Source: Limnohabitans sp. (GTDB taxonomy: Bacteria > Pseudomonadota > Gammaproteobacteria > Burkholderiales > Burkholderiaceae_C). Taken from it: DNA of 64,000 bases. Positions within the stretch are counted from its first letter, which is position 1, and every line of letters begins with the position of its first letter. A model generated the notes under the pieces. That model did not search any database, was not told the DNA's origin, and was given only the letters and a program-made list of their open reading frames with translations. The DNA is taken from the NCBI GenBank assembly GCA_018882835.1, contig VERE01000006.1, positions 1-64,000 on the forward strand, given 5' to 3'. Shown here piece by piece: positions 13,375-30,526 of the stretch. A program made the position numbers and the translations under genes.

Positions 13375-14601
13375 ATGAACATTCGATCCATCGCAAGTGT
13401 CAAGCCTGTGCCTGCTGCCAGCAAACGATTGACCGCGCAAGAAGCGGTTCAGGCCGCCGCGGCCCTGGTGCCCCGGCTGGCCGAGCGCGCTGCCGAAGCC
13501 GAGCGCCTGCGCAGAATCCCTCAAGCCACCATTGACGAACTGCACGAAGCAGGCCTGATGCGCCTGATGCAGCCAGCGCGTTTTGGCGGTTCCGAACTGG
13601 GCCTGGACACCTTGATGAACGTGGTGACCGAAATCGCCAAAGGCTGTACCTCGACGGCGTGGGTCTATTCCAACCTCGCCTCCCACTCCTGGAACATCGG
13701 CCAATTTGAGATGCGTGCCCAGGAAGACGTCTGGGGAACCGACCCCGATGCGCTGGCTGCCACAGGCCTGGCCTTCCCCTGTGGTCGCGCCATCCCGGTA
13801 GAGGGCGGCTTCAAGCTGTCGGGCAAGTGGCCTTTCGCCAGTGGCATTGATGCTTCCACCTGGATGCTGGTGGGCGCCATGACAGAATTGCCTGGGCGTG
13901 CGCCAGAGCGCAGGTTCTTCCTGGTGCCCCAGTCGCAGTTCCGCAGCCTGGACAATTGGGATACCTATGGCCTGACCGGCACGGGCAGCCACGATGTGGA
14001 GGTCAAAGAGGCCTTTGTGCCGGACCACCGAAGCGTTTCGGCAGAGGTGTTCGCCGCTGGGCAAAATTTGCCTGGCGCCACCCTGTATGAAAATCCCCTG
14101 TACGCCATGCCCACTTTTGCCGCATTCGCGTATGTCCTGTCGATCGTGCCCATAGCCACTGCCAAAGCCGTGGTGGAGCAATTCACTGCCGCCATGCGCG
14201 CGCGCGCCAGCACCTACACGGGCGCCCGTGTCGCCGAGTTGAGCTCGGTTCAGGCACGCATTGCCGAGGCCGCAGCATGCGTGGAGTTTGCAGAAACCGT
14301 GGTGCGCCGTGATTGGCAGGAGCTGGAGTCCCAGGCCAATGAGCGTCGCTACCCGAGCATGGAGACCAAATTGCGCTGGAAGCGCAACGTGGCTTTCGCT
14401 TCACAGTTGGCCGTGCGTGCGGTCGACGTCCTGATGCCGGCGGCAGGGGCGGGGGGGTTGACGAAATCGGCCGCATTGCAGCGCCAGTTCCGCGACTTGC
14501 ATGCTGCCTCGGCCCACATTGGCCTCACCTGGGATGTCCACGCCGTAGCCTATGGCCAAAGCGCCCTGGGGCTGCAGCCCAATGCGGGTTTCTTGCTTTG
14601 A
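13375..14601 (+). CDS. Acyl-CoA dehydrogenase-fold flavin monooxygenase (class D)
   Basis: Protein of 408 residues with the acyl-CoA dehydrogenase fold. The arrangement (IPQATIDELHEAGLMRLMQPARFGGSE, AKGCTSTAWVYSNLASH, GGFKLSGKWPFASGIDAS) is that of oxygenase components of two-component flavin monooxygenases such as HsaA and C2-type 4-hydroxyphenylacetate 3-hydroxylase, not of true acyl-CoA dehydrogenases. Such enzymes use reduced flavin and oxygen to hydroxylate aromatic rings or cleave C-S or C-N bonds. ATG 13375 has GAGGG five bases upstream. No flavin reductase gene is adjacent, so reduced flavin must come from elsewhere. It opens the catabolic island. Confidence 0.83.
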   Translation: MNIRSIASVKPVPAASKRLTAQEAVQAAAALVPRLAERAAEAERLRRIPQATIDELHEAGLMRLMQPARFGGSELGLDTLMNVVTEIAKGCTSTAWVYSNLASHSWNIGQFEMRAQEDVWGTDPDALAATGLAFPCGRAIPVEGGFKLSGKWPFASGIDASTWMLVGAMTELPGRAPERRFFLVPQSQFRSLDNWDTYGLTGTGSHDVEVKEAFVPDHRSVSAEVFAAGQNLPGATLYENPLYAMPTFAAFAYVLSIVPIATAKAVVEQFTAAMRARASTYTGARVAELSSVQARIAEAAACVEFAETVVRRDWQELESQANERRYPSMETKLRWKRNVAFASQLAVRAVDVLMPAAGAGGLTKSAALQRQFRDLHAASAHIGLTWDVHAVAYGQSALGLQPNAGFLL

Positions 14602-14717
14602 GAAACCCTTCGGTTTTGGTGGGAATTGATCGACCGATTACTTGCGCGTTTGCCCTAATGTCGGCACTGACGGAAACAGTTATGGTCGGTCCTCAAGAGT
14701 GAGAGACACAGTTTCAT

Positions 14718-15185
14718 ATGCCGATCAAAGACCTCAATCATTTCTTCATTCGTGCCAACGACCTGGAAGCTACCAAACAGTTCTTTGTGGATACGCTTGG
14801 CTTTGAGGTCATGCCGCGCCCCAATTTTCCGTTTCCAGGCTATTGGCTGGGCGTGAACGGATCCATTCAGGTGCACATCGGCCCCACGGGCATCCCCAAC
14901 CGGCAGCACTATTACCTTGGGACGCCTGACGATGCCGTGGATGGGCAGACCGGCGTGATCGATCATGTGGCCTTCCTGGCGGATGACCCCGGCAGCTTCA
15001 TCCAGCGGTTGGATGCCAAGGGTGTTTCGTACCGCCCTCGTCACTTGCCGGACTCCAACCTGTTTCAATTGTTTTTGCGTGACCCCAATGGGGTCATGAT
15101 TGAGCTGAATTTCTTTGGCGTTGACGATGTGTCGGCTTTCGGGGGTGAAAACTATTCCGAGATGACGCGGGTCAACGCGAGTTAA
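14718..15185 (+). CDS. VOC-superfamily protein (glyoxalase/extradiol dioxygenase type)
   Basis: Two beta-alpha-beta-beta-beta modules in 155 residues, the vicinal oxygen chelate fold. Probable metal ligands are His of DLNHFFIRA, His of VIDHVAF and Glu of VMIELNFFG. This size fits glyoxalase/fosfomycin-resistance-type proteins or small single-domain ring-modifying enzymes. It sits 45 bases before the LivK-type gene on the same strand and probably shares its transcript. A role in processing the imported compound is inferred from context; a detoxification role cannot be excluded. Confidence 0.8.
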   Translation: MPIKDLNHFFIRANDLEATKQFFVDTLGFEVMPRPNFPFPGYWLGVNGSIQVHIGPTGIPNRQHYYLGTPDDAVDGQTGVIDHVAFLADDPGSFIQRLDAKGVSYRPRHLPDSNLFQLFLRDPNGVMIELNFFGVDDVSAFGGENYSEMTRVNAS

Positions 15186-15230
15186 CCCCTTTTGTGTGTG
15201 TGCGTGAATCAATAGATTGAGGAGATCAAG

Positions 15231-16487
15231 ATGGATAAGACACGTCGCAAGGTCCTTGGCACCGCCGGTGCTGCTGTGATGGCTGCCAATTTGGGTGCGG
15301 GCGTTGCCCATGCACAAGGCGCTCCCGTCAAAATAGGCATGAGCATGCCCCAAACGGGTGGCTTGGGTGCCGGTGGCCAAGCCGCCTTGCTGGCGCTACG
15401 CATGTGGGTCGACGATGTCAACGCCAAGGGTGGCTTGTTGGGCCGCAAGGTGGAATTGATCGCCTATGACGACCAGAGCAACGGTGCCAACACCCCGGGC
15501 ATCTACACCAAATTGTTGGACGTGGACAAGGTTGACCTGCTGATTGCGCCATATGCCACCAACGTCACAGCGCCCATCATGCCGCTGGTCAAAGAGCGCC
15601 AAAAACTTTTGATGGGCAACTTCTCGTTCCAGGTCAATGCCAAGGTGCAGCATGACATGTGGTTCAACAACGCACCCTGGAACGACGCCAGAGGCTGGTC
15701 AGAGGGCTTCTTTGACATGGGCAAGAAGGCGGGCGGCAAGACGGCAGCCATTTTTGCGGCCGATGCCGAATTCCAGCAAAACCTGGCCAACGGCGCGCGC
15801 GAAATCATCAAGAGCTCTGGCCTGAACCTGGTGTACGACCAAAACTACCCGCCCAACAGCACCGACTTCTCGTCGATCATTCGGGCCGTGCGGGCATCGC
15901 GTGCGGAAGTCATTTTTGTGGCGTGCTACCCCAGCGAGGCCGTGGCCATCATGCGCTCGGTCAATGAAATCGGTTTGGGTTCGCAGGTGCAGTTGTTTGG
16001 CGGCGGGATGGTGGGTTTGCAGTTCACCCCCATCATGCAAAGCCTGGGCAGCCTGCTCAATGGTGTGACCAATTACAACTCTTATGTGCCGGGTATGAAA
16101 TACCCTGGCATTGATGAATTCTTCAAGCGTTATTCGGAACGTGCGGCCGCCGCCAAGGTCGACCCCCTGGGCTTCTACCTGCCTCCTTTCAACTACGCCA
16201 CGGGCCAAATGATCGAGGCGGCTGTCAATGCCACCAAGTCGCTGGACCACAAGAAGCTGGCAGATTACTTGCGCAAGAACACCCATCAGACCATCGTGGG
16301 GCCCATCAGCTTCGACAAAAACGGCGAACGTGCCAAGTCGGCCGTGGTGCAGGCGCAGTTCCGCAACATTCAGGACAACAACGTGGACCAGTTCAAGAAC
16401 ACTGGCAAACAGATCGTGGTTTGGCCCGACTCTGAAAAGCAAGGGGATCTGATCACACCGTTCGACAAAGCCCGCAAGGCAACCTGA
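15231..16487 (+). CDS. Branched-chain-amino-acid-type ABC transporter, periplasmic receptor (LivK family)
   Basis: Type I periplasmic binding protein of 418 residues. A Tat-like signal (KTRRKVLGTAG) with cleavage after AHAQ precedes the receptor core (VKIGMSMPQTGGLGAGGQAALLALRMWVDDVNAKGGLLGRKVELIAYDD), which is the LivJ/K hallmark. GAGGAGA precedes the ATG. It heads a complete HMGF transporter. In Burkholderiales such importers often serve aromatic acids or amides rather than amino acids, and the moly-hydroxylase genes downstream favour that here (inference). Confidence 0.9.
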   Translation: MDKTRRKVLGTAGAAVMAANLGAGVAHAQGAPVKIGMSMPQTGGLGAGGQAALLALRMWVDDVNAKGGLLGRKVELIAYDDQSNGANTPGIYTKLLDVDKVDLLIAPYATNVTAPIMPLVKERQKLLMGNFSFQVNAKVQHDMWFNNAPWNDARGWSEGFFDMGKKAGGKTAAIFAADAEFQQNLANGAREIIKSSGLNLVYDQNYPPNSTDFSSIIRAVRASRAEVIFVACYPSEAVAIMRSVNEIGLGSQVQLFGGGMVGLQFTPIMQSLGSLLNGVTNYNSYVPGMKYPGIDEFFKRYSERAAAAKVDPLGFYLPPFNYATGQMIEAAVNATKSLDHKKLADYLRKNTHQTIVGPISFDKNGERAKSAVVQAQFRNIQDNNVDQFKNTGKQIVVWPDSEKQGDLITPFDKARKAT

Positions 16488-16504
16488 TCGATTCTTTGTT
16501 CAGC

Positions 16505-16529
16505 AGGGGCGGACGGTCCGTCCGCCCCT
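16505..16529 (+). terminator. Strong hairpin between livK- and livH-type genes
   Basis: An 11-base perfect stem (AGGGGCGGACG / CGTCCGCCCCT) with a three-base loop, followed by the T-rich stretch CTTTCTT, lies in the 57-base gap between receptor and first permease. As an intrinsic, probably partial, terminator it would let the receptor be made in excess over the membrane subunits; it may also protect the 3-prime end of the receptor mRNA. Confidence 0.8.
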
Positions 16530-16544
16530 CTTTCTTAAGCGCTT

Positions 16545-17417
16545 ATGTTTTCATTTGAACTTTTGTTCGAGGCAGCCCTGTTCGGTATCTTGCTGGGCTG
16601 TTTCTATGCTGCAGTCAGCCTGGGCTTGTCTGTCGCGTTCGGTTTGCTGGACGTTCCTTATGTCGCCCACCCTGCGTTGCTGATCGTGGGTGCCTATTTC
16701 ACTTACATGCTCTCTGGCATGGGCATCGATCCCCTGTTGGCAGGGGTGTTGCTGACGCCGGTGTTTTTCCTGGTGGGCGTCTTGCTCTACCGCTTCTATT
16801 ACGAGACTTTTGAAAAGCGGGGCACCGACACCGGCGTGCGCGGTCTTGGCTTTTTCTTTGGCATCGCCTTCATCATCGAGGTACTGCTGATTCTGAGTTT
16901 TGGGGTCGACCAGCGCAGCGTGCGTGCCAGCTACATTGGCAGCAGCCTTGAAATTGGCGACTACCGTTTCCCTTACCGCATGCTGATCGCTTTCGGTGTG
17001 GCATTGTTGCTGACACTGGTGCTCACGCTGTACTTTTCGAAGACCTTCAATGGCCGGGCCATCAAGGCCGTGGGCCAGGACGAGGCCGCGCTTCGTTTGA
17101 TGGGGGCCAACCCGGTCAAGATCAAGCAACTCGCATTCGGCATTGCCACGGCGGTGAATGCGCTGGCAGGCGCCATGTTGATCATCGTCGGCCCGGTCGA
17201 GCCCGCGATGGACCGTATCTACATTGGCCGCACATTCTGCGTCGTTGTGCTGGCGGGTTTGGGCAGCATGAGCGGCACCCTGGTGGCAGGCCTCATTCTG
17301 GGTGTGGTCGAGTCCGTTGTTCTGATGACCTTCGGGGCTTCATGGGCGCCCGCGGTGGCCTTTGGCCTTTTGTTGTTGATGCTGGGCGTTCGCCCCCAAG
17401 GCTTGTTTGGAAGGTAA
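16545..17417 (+). CDS. ABC transporter permease, LivH family
   Basis: Inner-membrane permease of 290 residues with about eight hydrophobic segments. Family signatures include LSVAFGLLDVPYVAHPALLIVGAYFTY near the N-terminus and FNGRAIKAVGQDEAALRLMGANPVKIK, the cytoplasmic coupling region of LivH proteins. It pairs with the LivM-type protein six bases downstream. No good Shine-Dalgarno is visible just after the hairpin, consistent with reduced expression relative to the receptor. Confidence 0.9.
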   Translation: MFSFELLFEAALFGILLGCFYAAVSLGLSVAFGLLDVPYVAHPALLIVGAYFTYMLSGMGIDPLLAGVLLTPVFFLVGVLLYRFYYETFEKRGTDTGVRGLGFFFGIAFIIEVLLILSFGVDQRSVRASYIGSSLEIGDYRFPYRMLIAFGVALLLTLVLTLYFSKTFNGRAIKAVGQDEAALRLMGANPVKIKQLAFGIATAVNALAGAMLIIVGPVEPAMDRIYIGRTFCVVVLAGLGSMSGTLVAGLILGVVESVVLMTFGASWAPAVAFGLLLLMLGVRPQGLFGR

Positions 17418-17423
17418 GGCGCC

Positions 17424-18356
17424 ATGAAATTCTGGTTAAGTTGCGCCGTCATGACCCTGGTGATTTTGGGTCTGGCCATGTCGGGTATCAATGAGTACCT
17501 GTTCTTTGCAGGTTTCGTGATCCTGCAATTCATCGTTCTGGCGACCGCCTGGAACATCCTGGGCGGCTACGCCGGTTATGTGAACTTTGGCGTTCCGGCT
17601 TTTGTGGCGGTTGGCGCCTACACCGCGGTGGTGTTGTTCAAGTCGATCCAGGCGCCCTTGATCGTCCAGATCCTTGGCGGCGGCATTCTTGCGGGTGCCC
17701 TGGGCCTGGGGGTCGGTTTGCTGACGCTCAAACTGCGAGGGATCTTTTTCTCGATCGCCACCGTGGCCGTGGTCTTTATCCTTGAAACCGTGGTCATGAA
17801 CTGGCGCTACGTGGGAGGTGCCACAGGCCTTCAACTGACACGCCCCTCGGACGCCTGGATTTTTGATTCCTATACCCGCATGCTGTTCTTTGTCATGGGC
17901 TTGCTGGCGATTGGCGCCATTGCCATTGCCCGCTACATTCAAGACTCTTACTTGGGGCAAGGTTTGAGAGCCGTGCGAGACTCCGAAGAGGCCGCAGAGT
18001 GCTCGGGCGTACCCACCCTGAAAATCAAGCTCATCGCCTGTACGGTGTCCGGTGCCTTGATGGGCATTGCGGGTGCGCCGATGCCGATGTACCTCAGCTA
18101 CATCGAGCCTACCTCCACCTTCAACCTCAGCTACTCCATTTCTGCGCTGGGCATGCCCATCATTGGCGGCACCTCGCATTGGCTGGGCCCGCTGATCGGT
18201 GCCATCCTGCTGGGCACCATTCAGCAGGTGGTGACCGTCACCATCTCCAGCGAATTGAACGTGCTGGTGGTGGGTGTGCTGTTGGTCTTGTTTGTTGTGT
18301 TGGCCCCTGAGGGTGTGCTCGGACTGGTGAAAAAATGGAAGCAATCCTCGAAGTAA
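17424..18356 (+). CDS. ABC transporter permease, LivM family
   Basis: Inner-membrane permease of 310 residues with multiple hydrophobic spans. Typical LivM features are ILGGYAGYVNFGVPAFVAVGAYTA, LRGIFFSIATVAVVFILE, and SYLGQGLRAVRDSEEAAECSGVPTLKIKL (coupling loop). The TAAGG before the start overlaps the end of the LivH-type gene. Its last 22 bases overlap the ATPase gene that follows, so the operon is translationally tight. Confidence 0.9.
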   Translation: MKFWLSCAVMTLVILGLAMSGINEYLFFAGFVILQFIVLATAWNILGGYAGYVNFGVPAFVAVGAYTAVVLFKSIQAPLIVQILGGGILAGALGLGVGLLTLKLRGIFFSIATVAVVFILETVVMNWRYVGGATGLQLTRPSDAWIFDSYTRMLFFVMGLLAIGAIAIARYIQDSYLGQGLRAVRDSEEAAECSGVPTLKIKLIACTVSGALMGIAGAPMPMYLSYIEPTSTFNLSYSISALGMPIIGGTSHWLGPLIGAILLGTIQQVVTVTISSELNVLVVGVLLVLFVVLAPEGVLGLVKKWKQSSK

Positions 18357-19051
18357 GCAAAGTCGCCAAGCACTTTGGCGGATTCACAGCCCTGCACGAA
18401 GTCAACCTTCAGGTTGGACGCGGCGAGCGGCTGGGCTTGATCGGCCCCAACGGGTCGGGCAAGACCACCCTGATCAGCTGCATTTCTGGCGCGTTGCAAA
18501 ACGACGGCGGCTCCATCAAGTTTGAAGGGCGTGAAATGACGGGCATGAAGGCTTTCGAGCGAACCCGTCTGGGCATCGCGCGCAGCTTCCAGATTCCCCG
18601 CCCATTCAAAAGTATGACGGTGCTGGAAAACCTCATGGTGCCTCTGGCGTATGTGGGCGGAATCAACGGGCACAAGGCCGAAACCGAGGCGATGCACATT
18701 CTGGAGCGCATGGGCTTGGCAGGTAAGGCCAGCACCCTGTCTGCACAGCTGTCCCAAGTAGAGCTGCGCAAGATGGAATTGGCGCGTGCCATGGCCGCCA
18801 AGCCCAAGCTGCTGATTTCCGATGAGGCGCTGGCCGGGCTGGCCGGGGCAGAGGTCGATGAAGTGCTGCAAATCTTGTTCGACCTGAACGCGTTGGGCAT
18901 CACCATCATCATGATCGAGCACATCATGCAAGCGGTCATGAAGTTCTCGCATCGCGTGGTGTGCCTGGACACAGGGCGCATCATTTGCGAAGGCACGCCT
19001 GAAACCATCATTCAAAACCCGGACGTACAGAGGGCTTACCTTGGCGATTAA
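18335..19051 (+). CDS. ABC transporter ATPase, LivG family, with divergent signature motif
   Basis: ATPase of 238 residues. Walker A is GPNGSGKTTL and the usual LivG segment TRLGIARSFQIPRPFKSMTVLENL is present. The ABC signature is degenerate: LSQVELRKMELARAM in place of the usual YGxQRRLEIARAL-type sequence, and Walker B reads LLISDEALAGL with Ala in place of the usual Pro after DE. Catalytic Asp-Glu are kept, so activity is plausible. It starts inside the LivM gene and overlaps the LivF gene by 11 bases. Confidence 0.88.
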   Translation: MEAILEVSKVAKHFGGFTALHEVNLQVGRGERLGLIGPNGSGKTTLISCISGALQNDGGSIKFEGREMTGMKAFERTRLGIARSFQIPRPFKSMTVLENLMVPLAYVGGINGHKAETEAMHILERMGLAGKASTLSAQLSQVELRKMELARAMAAKPKLLISDEALAGLAGAEVDEVLQILFDLNALGITIIMIEHIMQAVMKFSHRVVCLDTGRIICEGTPETIIQNPDVQRAYLGD

Positions 19052-19775
19052 GCTAGACATCAAAGACATCCATGCGGGGTATGGCGCGGTGCGCGCCCTC
19101 ATGGGCGTTTCCCTGGAATTGAACCAGGGCGAGACCGTGGCCTTGCTGGGCACCAACGGCAACGGCAAAAGCACGCTGATGAAATGCGTGATGGGCATGG
19201 TCAAGCCCGATCAGGGTGAAATCAACCTGGAGATCGATGGCGTCAGGCACGATCTGACAAAGCTCTCGACGGAAGAGATCGTCAACCTGGGTGTGGCCCT
19301 GGTTCCGGAGGGGCGGCGTCTGTTCCCGAAGCTGACCGTGGAGGAAAACTTGCTGCTGGGCGCGTTCCGAGAGCTCGCCCGTCCCCAGATTGCAGACAAC
19401 CTGGCCTTTTGCTTCGAGGCATTTCCGCTTCTGAAAGAGCGTCGCACCCAATTGGCAGGTTCCATGTCGGGCGGGCAGCAACAAATGCTGGCGATTGCCC
19501 GTGCTCTGATGTCCAGCCCCAAGCTGCTGCTGGTGGACGAGCCCTCGGTGGGTTTGTCGCCCTTGCTGGTCTCCACCACGATCACCAAGATCAAGGAACT
19601 CAAAGACAAGTACCAGCTGACCGTGCTGATGGCTGAGCAGAACTTCAACCAGGCGGTTCGCATTGCTGATCACGGCTACATCATCGTGCACGGTGAAATC
19701 GTGTTCAAGGGCGACGTGGACGCCATCAAGAACAACGAAATGGTCAAGAATTTCTACCTGGGTGTGGCCACCTGA
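19041..19775 (+). CDS. ABC transporter ATPase, LivF family
   Basis: ATPase of 244 residues starting at TTG 19041. Walker A is GTNGNGKSTL, the signature SGGQQQMLAIARAL, and Walker B LLLVDEPSVGLSPL, all canonical for LivF. It forms the heterodimeric motor with the LivG-type protein. A six-base stem (GGCCAC / GTGGCC) spans its stop codon but lacks a T-tract. The molybdenum hydroxylase operon begins 73 bases later on the same strand and may be read from the same transcript. Confidence 0.9.
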   Translation: MAIKLDIKDIHAGYGAVRALMGVSLELNQGETVALLGTNGNGKSTLMKCVMGMVKPDQGEINLEIDGVRHDLTKLSTEEIVNLGVALVPEGRRLFPKLTVEENLLLGAFRELARPQIADNLAFCFEAFPLLKERRTQLAGSMSGGQQQMLAIARALMSSPKLLLVDEPSVGLSPLLVSTTITKIKELKDKYQLTVLMAEQNFNQAVRIADHGYIIVHGEIVFKGDVDAIKNNEMVKNFYLGVAT

Positions 19776-19848: not shown

Positions 19849-20709
19849 ATGAAATCACCAGACTTCGATTACTTTCGTGCCAGCTCTTTGCAAGAGGCCT
19901 TGACCTGCCTGCAGGCGCATGGCGCGAATGCACAACTGCTGGCCGGTGGCCAAAGCTTGTTGGCCATGATGAATTTGCGCATGGCCTCGCCGCAGATACT
20001 CATCGACATCAGCCGCATTCCTGGCTTGTCGCAGATTGAGCGCCAGGGCAGCGTGATGCGCATCGGTGCTTTGGTCACCCATAGGCAGTTGCTGGATTCT
20101 GCGGAGGTCGCCACTTGCGTGCCGCTGCTGGCGCAAGCCGTGCCGTATGTCGCGCACCTGGCCATTCGCAATGCAGGCACCCTTGGCGGCAGCTTGGCGC
20201 TGGCCGACCCGGCGGCTGAATACCCGTCCGTGGCGCTGGCCTTGCAGGCCACGATGATTGCCACTTCCTTGCGTGGCGAGCGACGCATTGCCGCGGCGGA
20301 TTATTTTCAGGGCCTGTACCAAACGGCTTTGGCAGAGGATGAAATTCTCACCGCGGTTGAATTCCCCATTGCCACCCCCGGGCAGCGATTCAGCTTTCAA
20401 GAGTTGGCCCGCCGCCGTGGCGACTACGCGATGGTGGGGGTCGCCTGTGCCATCACTATGTCTGACGACCGTGTCAGCGATGCGCGCATCACTTTTTTGG
20501 CGATGGGCGATGGGCCCGTATTGGCCTCGCATGCCATGAAGGCCTTGGTTGGCACTTCGCTGGACGCTGCTGCCATTCAGGCCAGCCAGCAAGCCTTGTC
20601 GCACGACCTGGCGCCTGCGGGCGACTTGCAAGCCACCCCTGAGACCAAATGTCACCTGGCGCGCGTCTTGATGGGGCGCGCCCTGGCCCCGTTGAGGAGC
20701 GCTGCATGA
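19849..20709 (+). CDS. Molybdenum hydroxylase FAD subunit (CoxM/XdhB type)
   Basis: Medium subunit of 286 residues that carries FAD and passes electrons from the 2Fe-2S subunit to the acceptor. FAD-contact motifs are AGGQSLLAMMNLRMA and TLGGSLALADPAAEYPS. ATG 19849 is chosen over the tracked GTG 19807 because GAGG lies eight bases upstream. The stop overlaps the 2Fe-2S subunit start. Order medium-small-large is common among CO-dehydrogenase-like hydroxylases of aromatic and N-heteroaromatic compounds. Confidence 0.9.
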   Translation: MKSPDFDYFRASSLQEALTCLQAHGANAQLLAGGQSLLAMMNLRMASPQILIDISRIPGLSQIERQGSVMRIGALVTHRQLLDSAEVATCVPLLAQAVPYVAHLAIRNAGTLGGSLALADPAAEYPSVALALQATMIATSLRGERRIAAADYFQGLYQTALAEDEILTAVEFPIATPGQRFSFQELARRRGDYAMVGVACAITMSDDRVSDARITFLAMGDGPVLASHAMKALVGTSLDAAAIQASQQALSHDLAPAGDLQATPETKCHLARVLMGRALAPLRSAA

Positions 20710-21221
20710 GCGAGAAAAAAATCAGCACCCATTTCACGCTGAATGGCGTGCCCACCCAACGCGACGTCCCCGTGCGTCTGCATCTGGTGGACATGTTGCG
20801 CGAAGAGTTAGGCCTGACGGGCTCGCACCTGGGGTGTGAGCACGGCGTCTGTGGCGCATGCCAAGTCATGGTGGATGGCCAGCCCGTGCGCGGTTGCCTC
20901 ACGCTGGCGGTGCAAGCCGATGGCCGCCAGGTTGAAACCATTGAGGGCTTGTCGGACAGCGGCGAGCTTGCGGAGCTGCAAGCCGCATTTTTGGCACACA
21001 ACGCCTTTCAATGCGGATTTTGTGCCTCTGGCATGTTGATCACCGCGCTGGACATCGTGCGACACCACCGTGACGCCGACCGTGACGGCATTCGCGACCT
21101 GATTTCTGGCAACTACTGCCGCTGCACAGGCTACCAATCCATTGTGGATGCGATCGAGTCTGTGCTGAAAGCCCACCGTGCGCTGCCCCCTCAGCGTTTG
21201 ACACAAGGAGCCGCGTCATGA
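20706..21221 (+). CDS. Molybdenum hydroxylase 2Fe-2S subunit (CoxS type)
   Basis: Small subunit of 171 residues with two 2Fe-2S centres. The N-terminal plant-ferredoxin-like site is CEHGVCGAC plus a downstream Cys (VRGC), and the C-terminal four-helix site is CGFCASGM with NYCRCTGY. ATG 20706 overlaps the FAD subunit stop, with GAGGAGC upstream. It relays electrons from the molybdenum site to FAD. Its stop overlaps the large subunit start as ATGA. Confidence 0.94.
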   Translation: MSEKKISTHFTLNGVPTQRDVPVRLHLVDMLREELGLTGSHLGCEHGVCGACQVMVDGQPVRGCLTLAVQADGRQVETIEGLSDSGELAELQAAFLAHNAFQCGFCASGMLITALDIVRHHRDADRDGIRDLISGNYCRCTGYQSIVDAIESVLKAHRALPPQRLTQGAAS

Positions 21222-23608
21222 ATGCACGTTCCGAATTGCCATTGAAAGCCGATGGCAGCCAAGTTCAGTCCAGCTTTGTCGGGCAGAGCATTCCGCGCTC
21301 GGGTGCCAAAAAATTATTGCAAGGCCGTGGCGCTTACCTGGACGATGTGCGTGTGCCACGCCTGGCCCATGTGGCGTTTTATCGCAGCCCGCACGCCCAC
21401 GCCAAGATCACCCAGATGGATTTGACACAGGCGCGTCAGCAACCGGGCGTCATCGCCGTGGTGGAGGGGCGTGCCCTGGCAGAATTTTGCACGCCCTGGG
21501 TCGGTGTTCTTGGCCATTTGAAAGGCATCAAATCAGCGCCACAGCATGCGTTGGCCATTGACCGCGTGTGCTGGCAGGGCGAGGCGGTGGTGGCCATAGT
21601 GGCCGAAACACGGCGTCAGGCAGAAGATGCCCTGGACCATGTGCAAATCGATTGGGCGCCCTTGCCGGCCGTCACCGACATGAAGGCCTCGCAGCGGGGT
21701 GACGTCGTCATCCATCCCGATTTGGGCGACAACATCTGCTTTACCCGCTCCTTGGAAACCGAGGGCTTTGCAGAGGCCTTTGCCAAGGCCGATGTGGTGG
21801 TGGAAAAAACCTACGACTTCAGCCGTCACACCGGCGTGACCAACGAGCCGCGTGCCATCCTCGCCGATTACAACCCGGCAGAGCACTCGCTCACGGTGTA
21901 CCACGGCACCCAGGCGCCCAACATGATGCAGGATGTCTTTTCGCGGCACCTGAACATCCCGGAGTCGAACGTGCGGGTCATTTGCAAGGATGTCGGCGGC
22001 TCCTTCGGCATCAAGGTGCACGTCTATGCAGACGAGATGGCCACCGCTGCGCTGTCTGTGATGCTCAAGCGCCCCGTCAAATTTGTGGCGGATCGCATCG
22101 AGTCCTTCCTGACCGACATCCATGCCCGCGAACACACGGCCACCGTGCGGCTGGCTTGCACCCGCGAAGGCGACATCATCGGCTTTGACCTGCTGGATTT
22201 GACGGGCATTGGCCCTTATTCAGTCTACCCGCGCACCAGTGGCATCGAAGGCAACCAGGTGGTGAACCTCACCGGTGGGCCTTACAAGCACAAGCACTAC
22301 CGCGCAAAACTCGATGTGGTGTTCACCAACAAGAATGTCACCTGCCAATACCGCGCCGTCGGACATCCCATTGCCATGGCCCTCACCGAAGGCATTGTGG
22401 ACGAGGCTGCGCGCGCCATCGGCATGGACCCGGCCGAGTTCCGGCGCCGCAACCTGATTGCTGACGATGCCTATCCCTACACTTTTCCTTCGGGCATCAA
22501 GTTTGAAAAACTGTCGCACCAGCAATGCATGGACAAATTGCTGAGCGTCATGGACTACCAAGGCTTGCGCAAAGAACAGGCCGAGTTGCGCCAAAAAGGC
22601 ATTTACCGCGGCATCGGCCTGGCCGCCATGATTGAGGTGACCAATCCCTCGCCGGCGTTTTACGGCGTGGGTGGCGCCCGCATCTCTGCCCAGGACGGCG
22701 CCACGTTGCGTCTGGACCCTGCGGGCATGGTCAATGTGCTGGTCAGCGTGACCGAGCAAGGGCAGGGCACGGAAGCGATCTTTGCGCAAATTGCAGCGAG
22801 TGCGGTCGGCGTCAGCATGGACCGCGTGCGCGTCATCACGGGCGATACCGCCGTGACGCCCTATGGCGGCGGCACCTGGGCTTCGCGCGGTGCGGGCATC
22901 GGTGGCGAAGCCGTGCTGCAAGCGGGCAAGGTGCTGAAGTCCCATATCCTGGAGGTGGCTGCCGCCATTCTCCAAGCAGACAAGGCCACGCTTGACGTGC
23001 AGGGCAACGAGGTCATCGACAAGCTCACGGGCAAAGTGCATATGCCTTTGCAAGAGGTGGGGCGCGTTGCGTATTTCCGCCCTGACACCTTGCCCATGAA
23101 TTTTCAATCGGAATTGACCGTCACGCGCCATTACACACCCAGAGAATATGGCTTCACCTTCACCAACGGCATCCAGGCTTCCTATGTGGAGGTAGATACT
23201 GAAACAGGGTTTGTGAAGTTGCTCAAGCACTGGTGCATAGAAGACTGCGGCACGGTCATCAACCCGATGCTGGTGGACGAGCAAATTCGGGGTGGCATTG
23301 TGCAAGGCATTGGCGGTGCGCTGTTCGAAGAGTGCCTCTACAGCGACGATGGCCAATTGCTCAATGGCTCCATGGCAGACTACCTCGTCCCCATGGCTGG
23401 CGAGATGCCGGACATTGTGGTGGGGCATGTGGAAACACCCACGCGAACCTCCGAGTTGGGCGCGAAGGGGGCCGGCGAGGCGGGCACAGCCGGCGCGCCC
23501 GGTGCCGTCATGAATGCCATCAATGATGCGCTGGCTTGCCTGGGGGCGAATGTGAGCGTGCAGCCTTTCACGCCGCAGCGCGTGCTTCAGGCGCTGGGGA
23601 AAATTTAA
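21218..23608 (+). CDS. Molybdenum hydroxylase catalytic subunit (CoxL/XdhA type)
   Basis: Large subunit of 796 residues carrying the molybdopterin cofactor. Family motifs are PRSGAKKLLQGRGAYLDDV at the N-terminus, KDVGGSFGIKVHVYADE, TPYGGGTWASRGAGIGGEA, and the catalytic Glu in GAKGAGEAGTAGAPGA near the C-terminus. The active-site loop reads CQYRAVGHP, unlike the YRCSFR of true CO dehydrogenase and unlike the YRGAGRPE-type loop of many relatives. It therefore likely hydroxylates an organic ring or aldehyde with water as oxygen donor; the substrate is unknown. It converges on the next gene with a four-base overlap. Confidence 0.9.
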   Translation: MNARSELPLKADGSQVQSSFVGQSIPRSGAKKLLQGRGAYLDDVRVPRLAHVAFYRSPHAHAKITQMDLTQARQQPGVIAVVEGRALAEFCTPWVGVLGHLKGIKSAPQHALAIDRVCWQGEAVVAIVAETRRQAEDALDHVQIDWAPLPAVTDMKASQRGDVVIHPDLGDNICFTRSLETEGFAEAFAKADVVVEKTYDFSRHTGVTNEPRAILADYNPAEHSLTVYHGTQAPNMMQDVFSRHLNIPESNVRVICKDVGGSFGIKVHVYADEMATAALSVMLKRPVKFVADRIESFLTDIHAREHTATVRLACTREGDIIGFDLLDLTGIGPYSVYPRTSGIEGNQVVNLTGGPYKHKHYRAKLDVVFTNKNVTCQYRAVGHPIAMALTEGIVDEAARAIGMDPAEFRRRNLIADDAYPYTFPSGIKFEKLSHQQCMDKLLSVMDYQGLRKEQAELRQKGIYRGIGLAAMIEVTNPSPAFYGVGGARISAQDGATLRLDPAGMVNVLVSVTEQGQGTEAIFAQIAASAVGVSMDRVRVITGDTAVTPYGGGTWASRGAGIGGEAVLQAGKVLKSHILEVAAAILQADKATLDVQGNEVIDKLTGKVHMPLQEVGRVAYFRPDTLPMNFQSELTVTRHYTPREYGFTFTNGIQASYVEVDTETGFVKLLKHWCIEDCGTVINPMLVDEQIRGGIVQGIGGALFEECLYSDDGQLLNGSMADYLVPMAGEMPDIVVGHVETPTRTSELGAKGAGEAGTAGAPGAVMNAINDALACLGANVSVQPFTPQRVLQALGKI

Positions 23609-24828
23609 GACAGAACCGTGTGCGCCACACCGTTGATTTCGACGGCGGTTTCCATGATCAGGTTGTACGGGTCGGCGAAATGCGTGGCCCATTGCGCCAT
23701 GCCCGGATCGGGCAAGTTGATCACGGCGCCCAATTGTTGCGCCATCGTCACCGCCTTGTAACCCACCGGCACCCGCACACGGCTGTATTCAGCCAGCGCT
23801 TGCGGCACCTGCTGGCCCGACTCTTGTAGCGCCTGAACCAAGGCCAAGGCATCGCCCGCCGCCTTGGTGACGCCTTGGCCCACATGGGGGCGCGCCACAA
23901 AGGCTGCGTCGCCCAGCAAGGCGACGCGCTGCGTGCCCATGGTGTCGGTGACGCCGTCCAATATTGTTTGCACAATCAGGTCGGGTGATTTGTCCACAAT
24001 TTCAGCCCACACCGGGTGCAATTGAGCGTGTGCTGCTTGCCTGGCTTGCTGGAGGACCTCGGGTCGCAACAGGTGCGGCGCAATGCCATCCGGGTGATAG
24101 CGGCCCTGCGCATCCGTGAGGATGTCACGCAAGGCCTCGGCTGAGGTACGGCGGTACCACACGAAATTGACGTGAATCGTGTTCTGATGGTCAGCACCCA
24201 GCACCGGATAGCCGACAATTTGCTCGCCCGGGATTTGAGAAAAGGCAAAGTTCTCACCCACAAGCTCGCAAGCCAAAGTGCTCAGGGCCTCCCGATGGAC
24301 CAGACCGCGCCAAGCGACATAACCCGCATAGCGCATGGGCGGCGCGTGAAATAACTGACGGCGTGCCTCCGATCGGTTGCCATCGGCCGCCACCACCAGG
24401 TCGGCTTGCAGCACCCGGCCATCGTGCAAATGCACTTGGGCCGCTTGCTGGGCATCGCCATCTTCAATTCGGACCACGCCGGACGACAAGTGGTAGCGAT
24501 CGGCAGGGAAGGCCTCCAGCAGAATCTGCAGCAAGCGAGACCAGGAGGTGAAATTTTGTGGCAATTGCACTTCACTCAGGATGTGGCCGCGCGCGTCAAA
24601 TGCAAGGCGCCGAGAAATTTCAATGCCCAGCCGGTTTTCGAATTGCGCGCCTGCCAATCGCATGACCTCGCGCAGGCCGGGATGGGTCACGATGCCAGTG
24701 CCTCTGCTTGTGAGTGGGGTGGCAGCTTTTTCCAGCAGGGTGACATCCCAGCCAGCACGGTGCAGCAGGTTGCCGGCAAACAGCCCCCCCATGGAACCCC
24801 CAATGATCACGGCCTTGGGTGCATGCAT
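23605..24828 (-). CDS. FAD-dependent aromatic monooxygenase (2,6-dihydroxypyridine hydroxylase-like)
   Basis: Single-component flavoprotein hydroxylase of 407 residues. The Rossmann site is VIIGGSMGGLFAGNLLHRAGWDVTLLEK, followed by GTGIVTHPGL, the DG motif LVVAADGNRS, GYVAWRGLV, and the GD motif ALLGDAAFVARPHVGQG. The RGTGIV and GYVAWRG blocks resemble 2,6-dihydroxypyridine 3-hydroxylase of nicotine degraders (from memory of that family). It would insert one oxygen into an electron-rich ring using NAD(P)H and oxygen. AGGA lies eight bases before its ATG. Only 14 bases separate its start from the divergent TetR gene. Confidence 0.85.
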   Translation of the reverse strand: MHAPKAVIIGGSMGGLFAGNLLHRAGWDVTLLEKAATPLTSRGTGIVTHPGLREVMRLAGAQFENRLGIEISRRLAFDARGHILSEVQLPQNFTSWSRLLQILLEAFPADRYHLSSGVVRIEDGDAQQAAQVHLHDGRVLQADLVVAADGNRSEARRQLFHAPPMRYAGYVAWRGLVHREALSTLACELVGENFAFSQIPGEQIVGYPVLGADHQNTIHVNFVWYRRTSAEALRDILTDAQGRYHPDGIAPHLLRPEVLQQARQAAHAQLHPVWAEIVDKSPDLIVQTILDGVTDTMGTQRVALLGDAAFVARPHVGQGVTKAAGDALALVQALQESGQQVPQALAEYSRVRVPVGYKAVTMAQQLGAVINLPDPGMAQWATHFADPYNLIMETAVEINGVAHTVLS

Positions 24829-24842
24829 ACTCTTATCCTAAA

Positions 24843-25538
24843 ATGCAAAACGTGAAAAAAAGTCAACCTTCAGCGGGAACACGGCTGGATCCCGCCACCC
24901 GACGCCAGCAAATTCTGGATGCAGCCATTGTGTACTTTGCCGAGGCAGGCTTTGGTGTCCAGACCCGAGAGTTGACACGCCGCATCGGTGTGTCCCAGCC
25001 TTTGCTTTACCGTTACTTTCCGTCCAAGCAAGACTTGATCAATGCGGTGTTTGATGCGGTGTTCATCGGCCGCTTTGACGAAAACTGGATTGCCTTGCTC
25101 AGAGACCCAGCCACGCCCTTGCGAGACCGGTTGCTGCATTTCTACGAGCTGTATGCCAAAGCCACATACCGTCCCGAGTGGATTCGCATCTACATGTATG
25201 CGGGCCTGGCCGACATGGGGTGGAACCGCAACTACCTGAACATTGTTCGTAAAAAGTTGCTGAACGTGATGTGTGAAGAGCTTCGCACCGCTTTGGTTCC
25301 CGCCAGGCTCTTGAAAGACGCCCCGCCCATCAGCGGGCGTGAAATCGAGTTGGTGTGGAACCTTCATGGCAGCATGTTTTACTGGGGTGTGCGGCAAAAT
25401 ATTTTCAACACCAAGTCGGCTACATCGTTTGAGGCGCGGACGGCAGACGCCATTGACCTGTTTCTTTCAGGCGCGGCAGTTCACTACCCCCGGATCCTGG
25501 AAGAGGCTGTCCGCGAGGACAAGAAGAAGCCCCGTTGA
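24843..25538 (+). CDS. TetR/AcrR-family transcriptional regulator
   Basis: Regulator of 231 residues. The N-terminal HTH region is clear: ATRRQQILDAAIVYFAEAGFG, then the recognition helix segment GVSQPLLYRYFPSKQDL. The C-terminal ligand domain is unclassified. No Shine-Dalgarno precedes ATG 24843 (or the in-frame GTG 24852), and the start lies 14 bases from the divergent monooxygenase start, so this mRNA may be leaderless or read from within that gene. It probably controls the surrounding catabolic genes in response to a pathway compound (inference). Confidence 0.88.
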   Translation: MQNVKKSQPSAGTRLDPATRRQQILDAAIVYFAEAGFGVQTRELTRRIGVSQPLLYRYFPSKQDLINAVFDAVFIGRFDENWIALLRDPATPLRDRLLHFYELYAKATYRPEWIRIYMYAGLADMGWNRNYLNIVRKKLLNVMCEELRTALVPARLLKDAPPISGREIELVWNLHGSMFYWGVRQNIFNTKSATSFEARTADAIDLFLSGAAVHYPRILEEAVREDKKKPR

Positions 25539-25543
25539 ACAGC

Positions 25544-25567
25544 GGCTGAGGGGCCGCCGCCTCAGCC
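25544..25567. terminator. Hairpin between convergent tetR and deacetylase genes
   Basis: An eight-base perfect stem (GGCTGAGG / CCTCAGCC) with an eight-base GC-rich loop lies between two converging genes and spans the stop codon of the minus-strand one. No T-tract is evident; a bidirectional terminator is the simplest reading. Confidence 0.45.
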
Positions 25568-26455
25568 CTTGGGCGCAGGAATTTGCTGGGTGTACCAGTC
25601 GGCAATTTTTTCGCCCGTCATGATGGCCACATCTGCCTTGGCCAACACGGCATCCAGCAAGCGCTCAAACGCTTCAATACGATGTGGCACGCCCGTGATG
25701 TAGGGGTGCACGCTGATGGCCATCACGCGCGGTGACTGTGCGCTGTCTTTCCACAGCCGCTCCAATTGCAGGACCCCGCGGTGGTACAGCTCGTCGCTGC
25801 GGTGGTTCTGAATGGCCATCAGGGGGATGTCGTTGATTTCCACGGTGTAGGGGACGGACAGTACAGGCCGTGGCTTGGCTTGGATCCAGGTCGGCTGGTC
25901 GTCAATGACCCAATCGGCCACGTACTCAATGCCTGCCGCGGATAAATGGTCCAGGGTTTCGTCGGTTTCTGTCAGGCCGGGGCTTTCCCAGCCACGAGGC
26001 GCCTTGCCTGTGAATGCTCGGATACTTTCAATCGTCTGGCGGATGGCCAGTGCCTGATCTTCCACACGGTGCATCGGGCCTTGCACATAGCTGTGCCCCA
26101 TGAACTCCCAGCCCGCATCGAGCGCAGCTTGTGCAACGCGCGGGTAAGACTGGCAGACGATGCCGTTGATAGCCAGCGTAGGCACGATGTGGCGCGAAAC
26201 CAGGGCATCGTAGAGACGCCAAAAACCCGCGCGCATGCCGTACTCGTGCCACGACCAGTTTGGCAGGTCCGGCAACAGGGGCTGGCCCATCGGGGGTGGC
26301 AGCACGGTGCGCGGCATGGCGCGCTCAATCGACCAATGCTCCACATTCACGATGATCCAGACCAGCATGCGCTTGCCATCGGGCATGGTCAGAGGCGGGC
26401 GGTCGGGCATCGCCATGTAGGGGACGCGGTCACTGAGCAAGCGAGGTGAGGTCAT
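25562..26455 (-). CDS. Polysaccharide deacetylase-fold amidohydrolase (PuuE-like)
   Basis: Protein of 297 residues with the NodB/PuuE-type fold. Visible features are the N-terminal VWIIVNVEHWSIE, GHSYVQGPMHRV with likely metal His, RGWESPGL, and ISVHPYITGVPHRI near the C-terminus. This arrangement is typical of cytoplasmic PuuE-like allantoinases and relatives that hydrolyse small amides, rather than secreted chitin or peptidoglycan deacetylases; no signal peptide is seen. The start at 26455 replaces the tracked upstream start, which would run into the dioxygenase gene. Downstream of the extradiol-type gene by 19 bases, it may hydrolyse an amide or formamide made by ring cleavage (inference). 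Confidence 0.8.
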   Translation of the reverse strand: MTSPRLLSDRVPYMAMPDRPPLTMPDGKRMLVWIIVNVEHWSIERAMPRTVLPPPMGQPLLPDLPNWSWHEYGMRAGFWRLYDALVSRHIVPTLAINGIVCQSYPRVAQAALDAGWEFMGHSYVQGPMHRVEDQALAIRQTIESIRAFTGKAPRGWESPGLTETDETLDHLSAAGIEYVADWVIDDQPTWIQAKPRPVLSVPYTVEINDIPLMAIQNHRSDELYHRGVLQLERLWKDSAQSPRVMAISVHPYITGVPHRIEAFERLLDAVLAKADVAIMTGEKIADWYTQQIPAPKG

Positions 26456-26474
26456 GGAAGGGCCTTGATGTATT

Positions 26475-27434
26475 TCAGGGCGTCTGGGAAGACGCCTCGT
26501 AGTTGTGAACGAAGTCTTCGGGCACTGAAGGGCCCCACAGGTACATGGAATCTTCAGGGGGGTAGTCGCCGGTGGGCCATTCGGTGTCAGCGCCAATGAA
26601 ATCTATGTCGTAGGAAAACTCCGTGAAGCTGCCCCAGGGGTCCTGTGCATAGTAGAAGTAGTTGGAGCCAATCACATGGCGACCCACGCCCCAGCCTTTG
26701 CGGTAGCCTGCGTGGTACATCTGCTCCATGCCCAGGCCCACTTCATCCAAATTGCGTACCACCCAGCTCGAGTGGTGCAGCCCGGGCCCATTCGATTTGG
26801 CCATCGCCAGCAAATGATGGTCACTGGCATGCGCGCCATGCAAAAAGGCAATCACATCCAGCGACTTGTCCGACAGGCGGAACCCCAGCGCCTCGGTATA
26901 AAACTTCACGGCGCGCGGCACATCGGTGACAAAAATCAGAATGTGTGACAAGCGTTGGGGATGGACTTTTTGCGTTTGGCTGCGCATGGGGCTCACGCCG
27001 ACGCCAATCACATTGTCATGAAAGGTAGACTCCTGGCGCGGGGCTTTGGCGGAGGGTGTCACCTTCTCGCTGACCACCACCTGGATCGGCATGCCATCGG
27101 GGTCGGCGACCCAAAAGCCTTGGCCATCGGATCGCGGATGCGGTGCGATCAGTGCGTGACCTGCAGCCTGAACCTGCGCCTTCAGGGCCGCCTCGTCTTC
27201 GGCATAGACGCCAACTGTGTAGTACTCGGTTTTTTTCGGGCCAGTGCCTTGGTGCACGATCCCCCAGCAGTGTGAATGGCCTGGCGTGAAAAGATGCAGT
27301 TGGTCGGCGTGACGAACCACCTGCAAGCCAAAGCAGTTGAAATAGGCTTCGGCCACGTTCAGGTCCGGCACGGACAGGGCAAAACGCAACACCGAATGGA
27401 TCGCAGTCACTTGAGGTCTTTTCACGAGGGCCAT
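26475..27434 (-). CDS. Two-domain extradiol (catechol 2,3-) dioxygenase-like protein
   Basis: VOC protein of 319 residues with two domains, the length of catechol 2,3-dioxygenases. In the catalytic C-terminal domain the expected Fe(II) ligands are His of QRLSHILIFV, His of GLHHSSWVV and Glu of GSFTEFSYD. Such enzymes cleave catecholic or dihydroxy-heteroaromatic rings next to the vicinal diol. It is transcribed ahead of the PuuE-like gene in a two-gene unit, divergent from the DapA-type gene. The natural substrate is not deducible. Confidence 0.85.
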   Translation of the reverse strand: MALVKRPQVTAIHSVLRFALSVPDLNVAEAYFNCFGLQVVRHADQLHLFTPGHSHCWGIVHQGTGPKKTEYYTVGVYAEDEAALKAQVQAAGHALIAPHPRSDGQGFWVADPDGMPIQVVVSEKVTPSAKAPRQESTFHDNVIGVGVSPMRSQTQKVHPQRLSHILIFVTDVPRAVKFYTEALGFRLSDKSLDVIAFLHGAHASDHHLLAMAKSNGPGLHHSSWVVRNLDEVGLGMEQMYHAGYRKGWGVGRHVIGSNYFYYAQDPWGSFTEFSYDIDFIGADTEWPTGDYPPEDSMYLWGPSVPEDFVHNYEASSQTP

Positions 27435-27488
27435 GGTCGTTCCTGTTCAAAGCCGGAATGAACCGCAGTCTAGGACACTGCTGATCGC

Positions 27489-27516
27489 TCGACCACTGGG
27501 GATTTCACTGTATGCT
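27489..27516 (+). promoter_or_regulatory. Candidate promoter for DapA-type gene
   Basis: TCGACC and TATGCT, each four of six matches to the sigma70 consensus, are 16 bases apart in the divergent gap. The -10 element is about 33 bases before the ATG at 27550. Confidence 0.3.
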
Positions 27517-27549
27517 CTGACCCCATCGCGACTTGCAAGAAAGCCTGAC

Positions 27550-28491
27550 ATGAATGCATTGAACCGATCAGCCAAGGGGGTCTATCTGATCACAGTGACG
27601 CCGTTCACTGCCTCGGGTGCGCTTGACTTGGACAGCACCGATCGCATGGTGGACTTTTGCCTTGAAAAGGGGGTGACCGGGCTGACCATTCTGGGCATCA
27701 TGGGCGAGGCGACCAAACTCACAGCCGAAGAGTCGCGCACCTTCGTGCAGCGCGTGCTGGCGCGCGTGGCTGGCAAGGTGCCTGTGGTGGTGGGCGCTTC
27801 AGCGCCAGGCTTTGCGCCCATGCGCGAGCTGACAGACAGCGTCATGGCCATGGGGGCTGCCGGCGTCATGGTGGCGCCGCCTTCCACGGTGCGCACCGAT
27901 GACCAAATTGTGGCGTATTTCGACATGGTCAATGAGACGCTGGGGGCCAATGTCCCGTGGGTTTTGCAAGACCATCCGGTGGCCACAGGGGTGCAAATGT
28001 CGGCTTCGGTGATTTTGCGCATCTTGAAAAATTCGCCTACCTGCGTGATGTTGAAACACGAGGATTGCCCCGGCTTGGCCAAGCTGTCGGCGATTCGTGC
28101 CGCTTGCGACCGTGGCGATGTGCAGCGCGTGTCGATTCTGACGGGCAACGGTGGCGGGCTTTTCTTGCCTGAAGAGCTCAGCCGTGGTGCCGATGGCGCC
28201 ATGACGGGTTTCGCCTACCCCGAGATGATGGTTGATGTGTGCCAAGCGCACGCCGCAGGCCATGTCGAGCGCGCCCATGATGTGTTCGATGCCTATTTGC
28301 CCTTGGCCCGCTACGAGCAGCAATCTGGCGTAGGCTTGGCGGTTCGCAAGCATTTGCTGGCACAGCGCGGCGTGATTGCTTCCGAGGCCGTGCGCAAGCC
28401 TGGCCCCAAACTGAGTCCGGCTGATCTGGCCGACATCGCCCGTTTGGTGCAGCGACAAGAGCGTCGCCTGGCCGAACTGGGTGCCCGATGA
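27550..28491 (+). CDS. DapA-family class I aldolase/hydratase
   Basis: TIM-barrel Schiff-base enzyme of 313 residues from the dihydrodipicolinate synthase / N-acetylneuraminate lyase superfamily. The Schiff-base Lys lies in CVMLKHEDCPG (about residue 169) and the substrate-carboxylate loop is GIMGEATKL. The position usually holding the catalytic Tyr reads LQDHPVATG, with His (about 142) in its place. This and the catabolic setting argue against lysine biosynthesis; cleavage or hydration of a 2-oxo acid from ring degradation is plausible. The ATG at 27550 is used because upstream codons in the track lack family sequence. Confidence 0.82.
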   Translation: MNALNRSAKGVYLITVTPFTASGALDLDSTDRMVDFCLEKGVTGLTILGIMGEATKLTAEESRTFVQRVLARVAGKVPVVVGASAPGFAPMRELTDSVMAMGAAGVMVAPPSTVRTDDQIVAYFDMVNETLGANVPWVLQDHPVATGVQMSASVILRILKNSPTCVMLKHEDCPGLAKLSAIRAACDRGDVQRVSILTGNGGGLFLPEELSRGADGAMTGFAYPEMMVDVCQAHAAGHVERAHDVFDAYLPLARYEQQSGVGLAVRKHLLAQRGVIASEAVRKPGPKLSPADLADIARLVQRQERRLAELGAR

Positions 28492-28512
28492 TTCATTGAA
28501 CAAGGACACTGC

Positions 28513-28842
28513 ATGTTGATTCGTTGCGCTTTTTTTCGCGGTCACGTCAAGCCTGGCATGGAGGAAGAATTCTTCCGCCATGTGCATGACAAGCTGGTGC
28601 CGCTGTGGTCCCAGTTTCCCGGCGTACAAGAAGTGAGGGTGCTGCGCCAGCGCGAAAGCGACGTCGAAGACCCCCACTTGGCCATGGTCATGGCCATGCG
28701 CTTTGAAAGCATGGAAGCGATTGAAAAGGCCTTGGCCTCCGACATTCGCTACCAGAGCAAAGAGGCATCCAAGCGTTTGTTTGAAATGTTTGACGGCTCC
28801 GTGTTTCATACGGTGTTTGATGCGGAGCAGTTCAAGCCTTGA
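28513..28842 (+). CDS. Small dimeric alpha/beta-barrel-like protein, unknown function
   Basis: Protein of 109 residues with the beta-alpha-beta pattern of ABM/Dabb-type dimeric alpha-beta barrels: LIRCAFFRGHVKPGMEEEFF, then GVQEVRVLRQRE and MAMRFESMEAIEKAL. Such proteins are often accessory oxygenases, isomerases or decarboxylases in aromatic pathways, but the exact role is unknown. It begins 21 bases after the DapA-type gene and ends just before the ATPase gene, so the three are probably cotranscribed. Confidence 0.7.
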   Translation: MLIRCAFFRGHVKPGMEEEFFRHVHDKLVPLWSQFPGVQEVRVLRQRESDVEDPHLAMVMAMRFESMEAIEKALASDIRYQSKEASKRLFEMFDGSVFHTVFDAEQFKP

Positions 28843-30523: not shown

Positions 30524-30526
30524 GCC

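Follow-up and report, generated by a model that had tools for sequence, protein, structure and literature searches.

A gene block on contig VERE01000006.1 of Limnohabitans sp. (Burkholderiales; GenBank assembly GCA_018882835.1) is a real catabolic unit of modular make-up, likely with an N-heterocyclic substrate. We read it as a cluster for the catabolism of a ring compound that contains nitrogen and is probably N-heteroaromatic (perhaps an acid), with a probability of about 0.55. The window, meaning the whole 64,000-nucleotide stretch analysed (positions 1 to 64,000 of the contig), was examined up to 47.7 kb. The invariant core of the cluster is a LivKHMGF importer, a three-subunit molybdenum hydroxylase (CoxMSL) and a PuuE-like amidohydrolase, found together across the genus, the family, the order and one other class. 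A TetR regulator, a 2,6-dihydroxypyridine hydroxylase (DHPH)-like FAD monooxygenase, an extradiol dioxygenase-like protein (EDO), a single-domain VOC protein (VOC1), an acyl-CoA-dehydrogenase-fold class D flavin monooxygenase-like oxygenase component (ACAD) and an SMP-30-type possible lactonase are frequent, exchangeable partners of this core.

The block genes are linked far beyond chance and form a genuine linked unit, because the block is syntenic in another genome and its genes co-occur repeatedly across further genera and families. When genome contigs of 84,980 species were scanned by pattern, the syntenic metagenome-assembled genome (MAG) proved to be Loclat_bin-00649 (Burkholderiales), which holds the one near-identical EDO match found (88%) and carries the whole block from a TPP enzyme to an MFS gene, lacking only the window's TctC1 and a 3-hydroxyisobutyrate-dehydrogenase-like gene (HIBDH). 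In a survey of 399 Burkholderiales genomes, PuuE (at least 60% identity) was present in 10 other genomes, CoxL (at least 58%) in 21 and both in 9 (hypergeometric 4.5e-12, not corrected for relatedness), and the two lay close together on one contig in six of these nine; most of the genomes compared are related to one another and many are fragmented MAGs, so that absences on short contigs mean little. Within the genus, CoxL of at least 80% identity was found in 7 of 41 genomes, several of them incomplete, and the module is thus sporadic. Among 22 loci, picked by CoxL or PuuE so that the counts of those two are biased upward, CoxL and PuuE each occurred 19 times, LivG and LivF 13 times each, a dehydrogenase family 11 times, TetR and an LLM monooxygenase 8 times each, ACAD 6 times, and VOC1, SMP30, DHPH, EDO and HyuB 5 times each.

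Gene order varies around the core. The same-genus relative G416 reads SMP30-ACAD-VOC1-LivKHMGF-CoxMSL-DHPH-TetR-PuuE-DapA, G409 and G433 read EDO-VOC1-LivKHMGF-CoxMSL-dehydrogenase-hydrolase-PuuE-SMP30-ACAD, and G404 reads ACAD-Cox-Liv-VOC1-PuuE. G442 (Liv-Cox-DHPH-TetR-LLM-PuuE-EDO, EDO 64%), G556 (Liv-Cox-EDO-PuuE-LLM-TetR-DHPH-HyuA-HyuB) and G717, from another class (Liv-Cox-LLM-PuuE), bring in further enzymes. LivK homologs of 59-81% identity lie in most relatives' clusters, TetR homologs are linked, ACAD is linked in five relatives, and linked EDO homologs (49-64% identity) recur in G442, G556, G409 and G433. The SMP-30 gene belongs to the set; it stands directly upstream of ACAD, and a 78-79% homolog adjoins ACAD in loci L136-L138 and L152. 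DapA is weakly linked to the core, with an 80% homolog beside PuuE in G416 (L136) and linkage nowhere else beyond the syntenic MAG, and no ABM homolog was found in L136-L146, which limits ABM linkage to that MAG. That EDO, DapA and ABM are confined to the window and one MAG was rejected, as EDO, and once DapA, are linked in same-genus or same-family genomes; ABM stayed unlinked.

The original prediction, made from this sequence, had treated the genes as one catabolic unit, to be abandoned if they proved unlinked in relatives; the core and most partners are linked in many relatives. Its linear scheme, with each gene supplying a step, finds no support in that form, given the narrow distribution of DapA and ABM, the absence of EDO from a relative that is otherwise complete, and the presence in other neighbourhoods of an ACMSD-like decarboxylase, an LLM monooxygenase or the ATP-dependent hydantoinase HyuAB. 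Nor is the block an island by composition, which is ruled out by a G+C content close to that of the window (59.3% versus 59.5%).

From gene content, families, active-site ligands, linkage and clade structure, which are directly observed, we infer which reactions take place and in what order, what class of substrate is used and how the genes are regulated, as follows. LivK would bind the ring compound and LivHMGF import it, after which CoxMSL would put water-derived oxygen on the ring carbon beside the nitrogen to give the lactam (oxo) form, and the DHPH-like flavoprotein would add a second hydroxyl group. EDO, or VOC1, could then open the dihydroxylated ring with O2, and the PuuE-like amidohydrolase could release the nitrogen by cleaving the C-N bond left over, an amide or imide. 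The lactonase, aldolase and dehydrogenase may channel the carbon skeleton to central metabolism, with TetR probably repressing the genes until substrate is present.

Sequence assigns these enzymes to families, and none of those tested reached the equivalog cut-off of a curated NCBIfam model. Aerobic CO dehydrogenases carry an AYxCSFR active-site loop; CoxL has QYRAVGHP and scores below their cut-offs (500.5 versus 950 and 444.5 versus 991 bits). It also falls below those for xanthine dehydrogenase (405.5/780, 388.7/916 and 245.8/849.5 bits), while the genome's own XdhB, for comparison, scores 1064.9 bits. The closest solved relative of CoxL is quinoline 2-oxidoreductase (444 bits), and CoxMSL has the three-subunit make-up and catalytic glutamate (GxGE; GAKGAGE) of Qor-type hydroxylases; homologs of the window's kind have a QYR[AG]VGHP loop in common. 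The FAD monooxygenase is closest among solved proteins to DHPH (2VOU, 148 bits) and is not HpxO-like (116.6 bits, cut-off 500). Its PF22607 domain is also found beside uraH/uraD in Methylobacterium, and the family therefore leaves its substrate unfixed. The window enzyme belongs to a clade with 100/100 support, every sampled member of which stands beside PuuE (that of the PuuE-linked locus G097 lies outside), separate from enzymes paired with VOC in other Burkholderiales and from those linked to uraH/uraD in Methylobacterium. The H-H-E ligand columns of VOC1 are conserved, and in other taxa its homologs are partnered by FAD monooxygenases of the DHPH type. A VOC and PF22607 FAD monooxygenase pair recurs in L019, L033-L040 and L126, sometimes with DUF485 and an acetate-type symporter.

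The PuuE-like protein is not the allantoinase equivalog (104.8 bits, cut-off 424.6), and it shares EYG.RAG.WR, PYT..ND and H...G.P.R with 1Z7A/3CL6, motifs kept in the alignment of its relatives. EDO scores below the named subfamilies (HpaD 80.3/321.4, C23O 50.3/320.2, BphC 48.4/366.5 bits) and has all three metal ligands (H, H, E) and the second-sphere motif GRH..GSN.F.Y..DPWGS; its closest solved relatives are an uncharacterised glyoxalase/dioxygenase and homoprotocatechuate dioxygenase. In the EDO tree, the window sequence forms a group (99/97) with those of the Loclat MAG, G442 and G556, and G409 and G433 lie near, although a single group is weakly supported. ACAD belongs to the HsaA/HpaH group but lies below both cut-offs (308 of 450 and 277 of 650 bits), with 4-hydroxyphenylacetate hydroxylase C2 (PDB 2JBR, 225 bits) as its closest solved relative. 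DapA matches PDB 3DZ1 at 301 bits.

The relatives bearing hydantoinase genes point to a C-N hydrolytic step. In G180 (L046:1-14000), LivHMGF-PuuE-HyuA-HyuB-SDR-CoxMSL-dehydrogenase-TctC lie on one strand with gaps or overlaps under about 120 bases, and HyuB is fused to an acetone-carboxylase gamma domain. Such an operon-like run of hydroxylase, HyuAB and PuuE fits a lactam or imide intermediate. Molybdenum hydroxylases convert ring carbons beside nitrogen to lactams. Hydantoinase A/B relatives hydrolyse lactams with ATP, as reported for caprolactamase (PMC8453981). The constant core is therefore best read as import, lactam or imide formation, and C-N hydrolysis. The oxidative or later steps look interchangeable, being supplied by DHPH-like, VOC1/EDO, LLM or ACMSD-like enzymes. 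A link to an imidase was sought and not found, and PuuE matches on plasmids of Mesorhizobium, Variovorax, Streptomyces and Azospirillum sit among different genes and give no clue to substrate.

We tentatively extend this to a widespread, undescribed N-heteroaromatic pathway, in which a molybdenum hydroxylase of the QYRxVGHP clade might make a lactam or imide and a PuuE-type hydrolase, with or without HyuAB, might open it, with exchangeable oxygenase modules (DHPH with EDO or VOC; LLM with ACMSD-like). A search of a literature library returned no paper joining these elements, which is weak evidence for "undescribed", and searches for a described cluster that pairs polysaccharide deacetylase with dihydroxypyridine, or for any trihydroxypyridine or isonicotinate cluster, gave no match.

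Several observations weigh against the favoured reading. No gene indicates the substrate, although the N-heteroaromatic compound originally predicted is consistent with the data because a DHPH-like hydroxylase and different C-N hydrolases (PuuE-like, HyuAB) are linked to the molybdenum hydroxylase. The block showed no flavin reductase that could serve the class D oxygenase. EDO is missing from G416 and from the sampled stretch of G404, and some clusters have neither EDO nor DHPH. The best curated model for CoxL is glyceraldehyde dehydrogenase (544 bits, cut-off 790), and an aldehyde substrate is therefore conceivable. This match suits an aromatic compound with no ring nitrogen, whereby CoxMSL would oxidise an aromatic aldehyde, the hydroxylases would yield a catechol, EDO would carry out meta-cleavage and PuuE would deacylate or hydrolyse a side-chain amide. 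ACAD resembles the HsaA/HpaH phenol hydroxylases and EDO resembles HpaD, and a Burkholderia xanthine-oxidase-family enzyme oxidises piperonal (PMC5131310). However, the block yielded neither an FAH-type hydrolase nor a CoA ligase, PuuE is more constantly linked to the hydroxylase than is EDO, and HyuAB joins in relatives, so that we regard an aromatic aldehyde route as quite unlikely.

A related CoxL, 67% identical to the window's, also counts against the favoured reading, since it sits on Methylobacterium plasmids pMRAD01 and pNMS14P1 (L071, L096; the host of the latter is a Coffea arabica root isolate) in the order NCS1-racemase-uraH-uraH-uraD-FAD monooxygenase-TetR-CoxMSL-LivKHMGF, with NCS1 being a nucleobase symporter. 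This arrangement is a candidate for C-8 oxidation of methylxanthines, its hydroxylase being of DHPH type, not HpxO type, and its composition is close to that of the Pseudomonas CBB1 caffeine cluster. Were the window a variant of it, CoxMSL would be a caffeine or methylxanthine dehydrogenase, with the FAD enzyme hydroxylating (methyl)urate and PuuE acting as a (methyl)allantoinase, in keeping with the action of PuuE and hydantoinases on hydantoin-type rings. We consider this distinctly improbable: tblastn found no UraH or UraD homolog in the window or the PuuE-linked loci searched, the window LivK is 23% identical to that of Methylobacterium compared to mostly 59-81% to PuuE-linked ones, and the two groups have FAD enzymes from separate clades (each 100/100), with the window's resembling DHPH rather than HpxO. 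Canonical XdhABC, UraH, UraD-AllC and a xanthine permease are encoded on other contigs of the same genome, and EDO has no role in such a pathway. Several Burkholderiales (L081-L085, L149, L150), two of which are 2.0 Mb single-contig genomes, share a sister module in which VOC-FAD monooxygenase-TetR-(CoxG)-CoxMSL is combined with another LivKHMGF (LivK 22-23%).

It is less improbable, but still unlikely, that two or more separate pathways adjoin here, with Liv/Cox/PuuE/DHPH/VOC/ACAD set apart from DapA-ABM-TctC. DapA homologs of 65-72% in one family lie away from Cox and PuuE, and the restricted linkage of ABM points the same way, whereas the conservation of DapA beside PuuE in G416 and the intact block in the syntenic MAG argue for one unit. 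Such a split would overlap with the N-heteroaromatic reading that we favour, which needs neither DapA nor ABM.

Every gene named in the original prediction is an open reading frame of the family given, as judged by profile and PDB matches (weak for ABM), and the listed genes are all present; the list had overlooked the SMP-30 gene that opens the plus-strand run.

Table 1. Features of the cluster and its surroundings (positions in the window).
Feature	Positions	Strand	Basis and remarks
SMP-30/gluconolactonase-like, possible lactonase	12353..13282	+	PF08450 158.6 bits
ACAD	13375..14601	+	PF08028
VOC1	14718..15185	+	PF00903 40.6 bits; intact H-H-E ligand positions
LivK-type periplasmic binding protein	15231..16487	+	PF13458 205.6 bits
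LivK-LivH intergenic hairpin	16488..16544 (strong hairpin 16505-16529)	+	-23.6 kcal/mol, z -3.4
LivH permease	16545..17417	+	gene order and homology
LivM permease	17424..18356	+	gene order and homology
LivG ATPase	18335..19051	+	gene order and homology
LivF ATPase	19041..19775	+	gene order and homology
CoxM-type FAD subunit of molybdenum hydroxylase	19849..20709	+	PF00941 164.5 bits, PF03450 82.1 bits
CoxS-type 2x[2Fe-2S] subunit	20706..21221	+	PF01799, PF00111
CoxL-type molybdenum subunit	21218..23608	+	PF20256 268.5 bits, PF02738 219 bits
DHPH-like FAD monooxygenase	23605..24828	-	PF22607 domain; opposite strand to CoxMSL
TetR regulator	24843..25538 (start 24843 probable)	+	PF00440 53.4 bits; divergent from FAD monooxygenase
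PuuE/NodB-type amidohydrolase	25562..26455	-	about 297 aa, not the 344-aa open reading frame
EDO, two-domain type I (VOC)	26475..27434	-	family, metal ligands
DapA-type aldolase/lyase	27550..28491 (start 27550 probable)	+	PF00701 93.4 bits; divergent from EDO
ABM-like protein	28513..28842	+	weak match, 24.7 bits (cut-off 23.1)
HIBDH	30527..31486	-	PF03446 129.6 bits

EDO and PuuE, a minus-strand pair about 20 bases apart, probably form a single operon. HIBDH is a possible outlying member; L136 has a 58% homolog close to its cluster and L043 a 52% homolog beside LivK, but the gene is not at this place in the syntenic MAG. The LivK-LivH hairpin is likely an attenuator or 3' stabiliser; hairpin-like sequences with altered letters lie at the equivalent place in L136-L138. 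A simple inverted-repeat search of the intergenic regions for a shared TetR operator returned terminator-like hairpins only. Between the window and the syntenic MAG, identity is 99% for the ABM-like protein but just 74% for the lone ABC ATPase next to it (window 28513-29477 for the two). Elsewhere, the window encodes many TctC/Bug-type solute receptors, as usual for the group (8192-10252, 29528-32756, 45412-46416), and a MoxR ATPase, VWA-domain proteins and a trypsin-like protease (39276-44356) with fatty acid desaturase and SDR genes nearby.

The cluster is thus a recurring catabolic gene set defined by linkage over many genomes, with uncharacterised clades of molybdenum hydroxylase and PuuE-like protein. 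Once its substrate is named, many genes annotated just as "xanthine dehydrogenase family" or "polysaccharide deacetylase family" would gain a function, and it would be clear which ring compound these bacteria import.

Among known systems, quinoline 2-oxidoreductase QorMSL (PDB 1T3Q) is likewise a three-subunit molybdenum hydroxylase. However, its neighbours differ, and the QYR[AG]VGHP loop of the window's clade contrasts with the RGAGRP type of unrelated CoxL rows, to which the QorL loop presumably belongs. The 2,6-dihydroxypyridine 3-hydroxylase of nicotine degradation (2VOU) has the PF22607 substrate-side domain in common with the window enzyme, which forms its own clade. PuuE allantoinase (3CL6, 1Z7A) shares core motifs, but the window protein is far below the equivalog and is linked to a molybdenum hydroxylase and an importer. 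The nicotinate (nic), picolinate (pic) and nicotine pathways proceed by a molybdenum hydroxylase, then an FAD hydroxylase, ring cleavage and amide hydrolysis; we take their cleavage and hydrolase families to differ from those of the cluster. The caffeine cluster of Pseudomonas CBB1 (cdhABC, tmuM, tmuH, tmuD and a putative trimethylallantoinase; PMC4408171) likewise brings together a trimeric molybdenum hydroxylase, an FAD monooxygenase and an allantoinase-like gene, whereas the window has no tmuH or tmuD homolog and its FAD enzyme is not HpxO-like, with EDO, VOC and ACAD as extra components. On plasmid pRL8 of Rhizobium leguminosarum 3841, genes pRL80021-30 (CoxG-CoxMSL-LivKHMGF; L098) also place a molybdenum hydroxylase beside a LivKHMGF that is 53-67% identical to the window's, although CoxL is just 29% identical and no PuuE lies in the stretch seen. 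These genes are induced only in the pea rhizosphere (PMC3333776), which by analogy hints at a plant-derived ligand for the window's transporter family.

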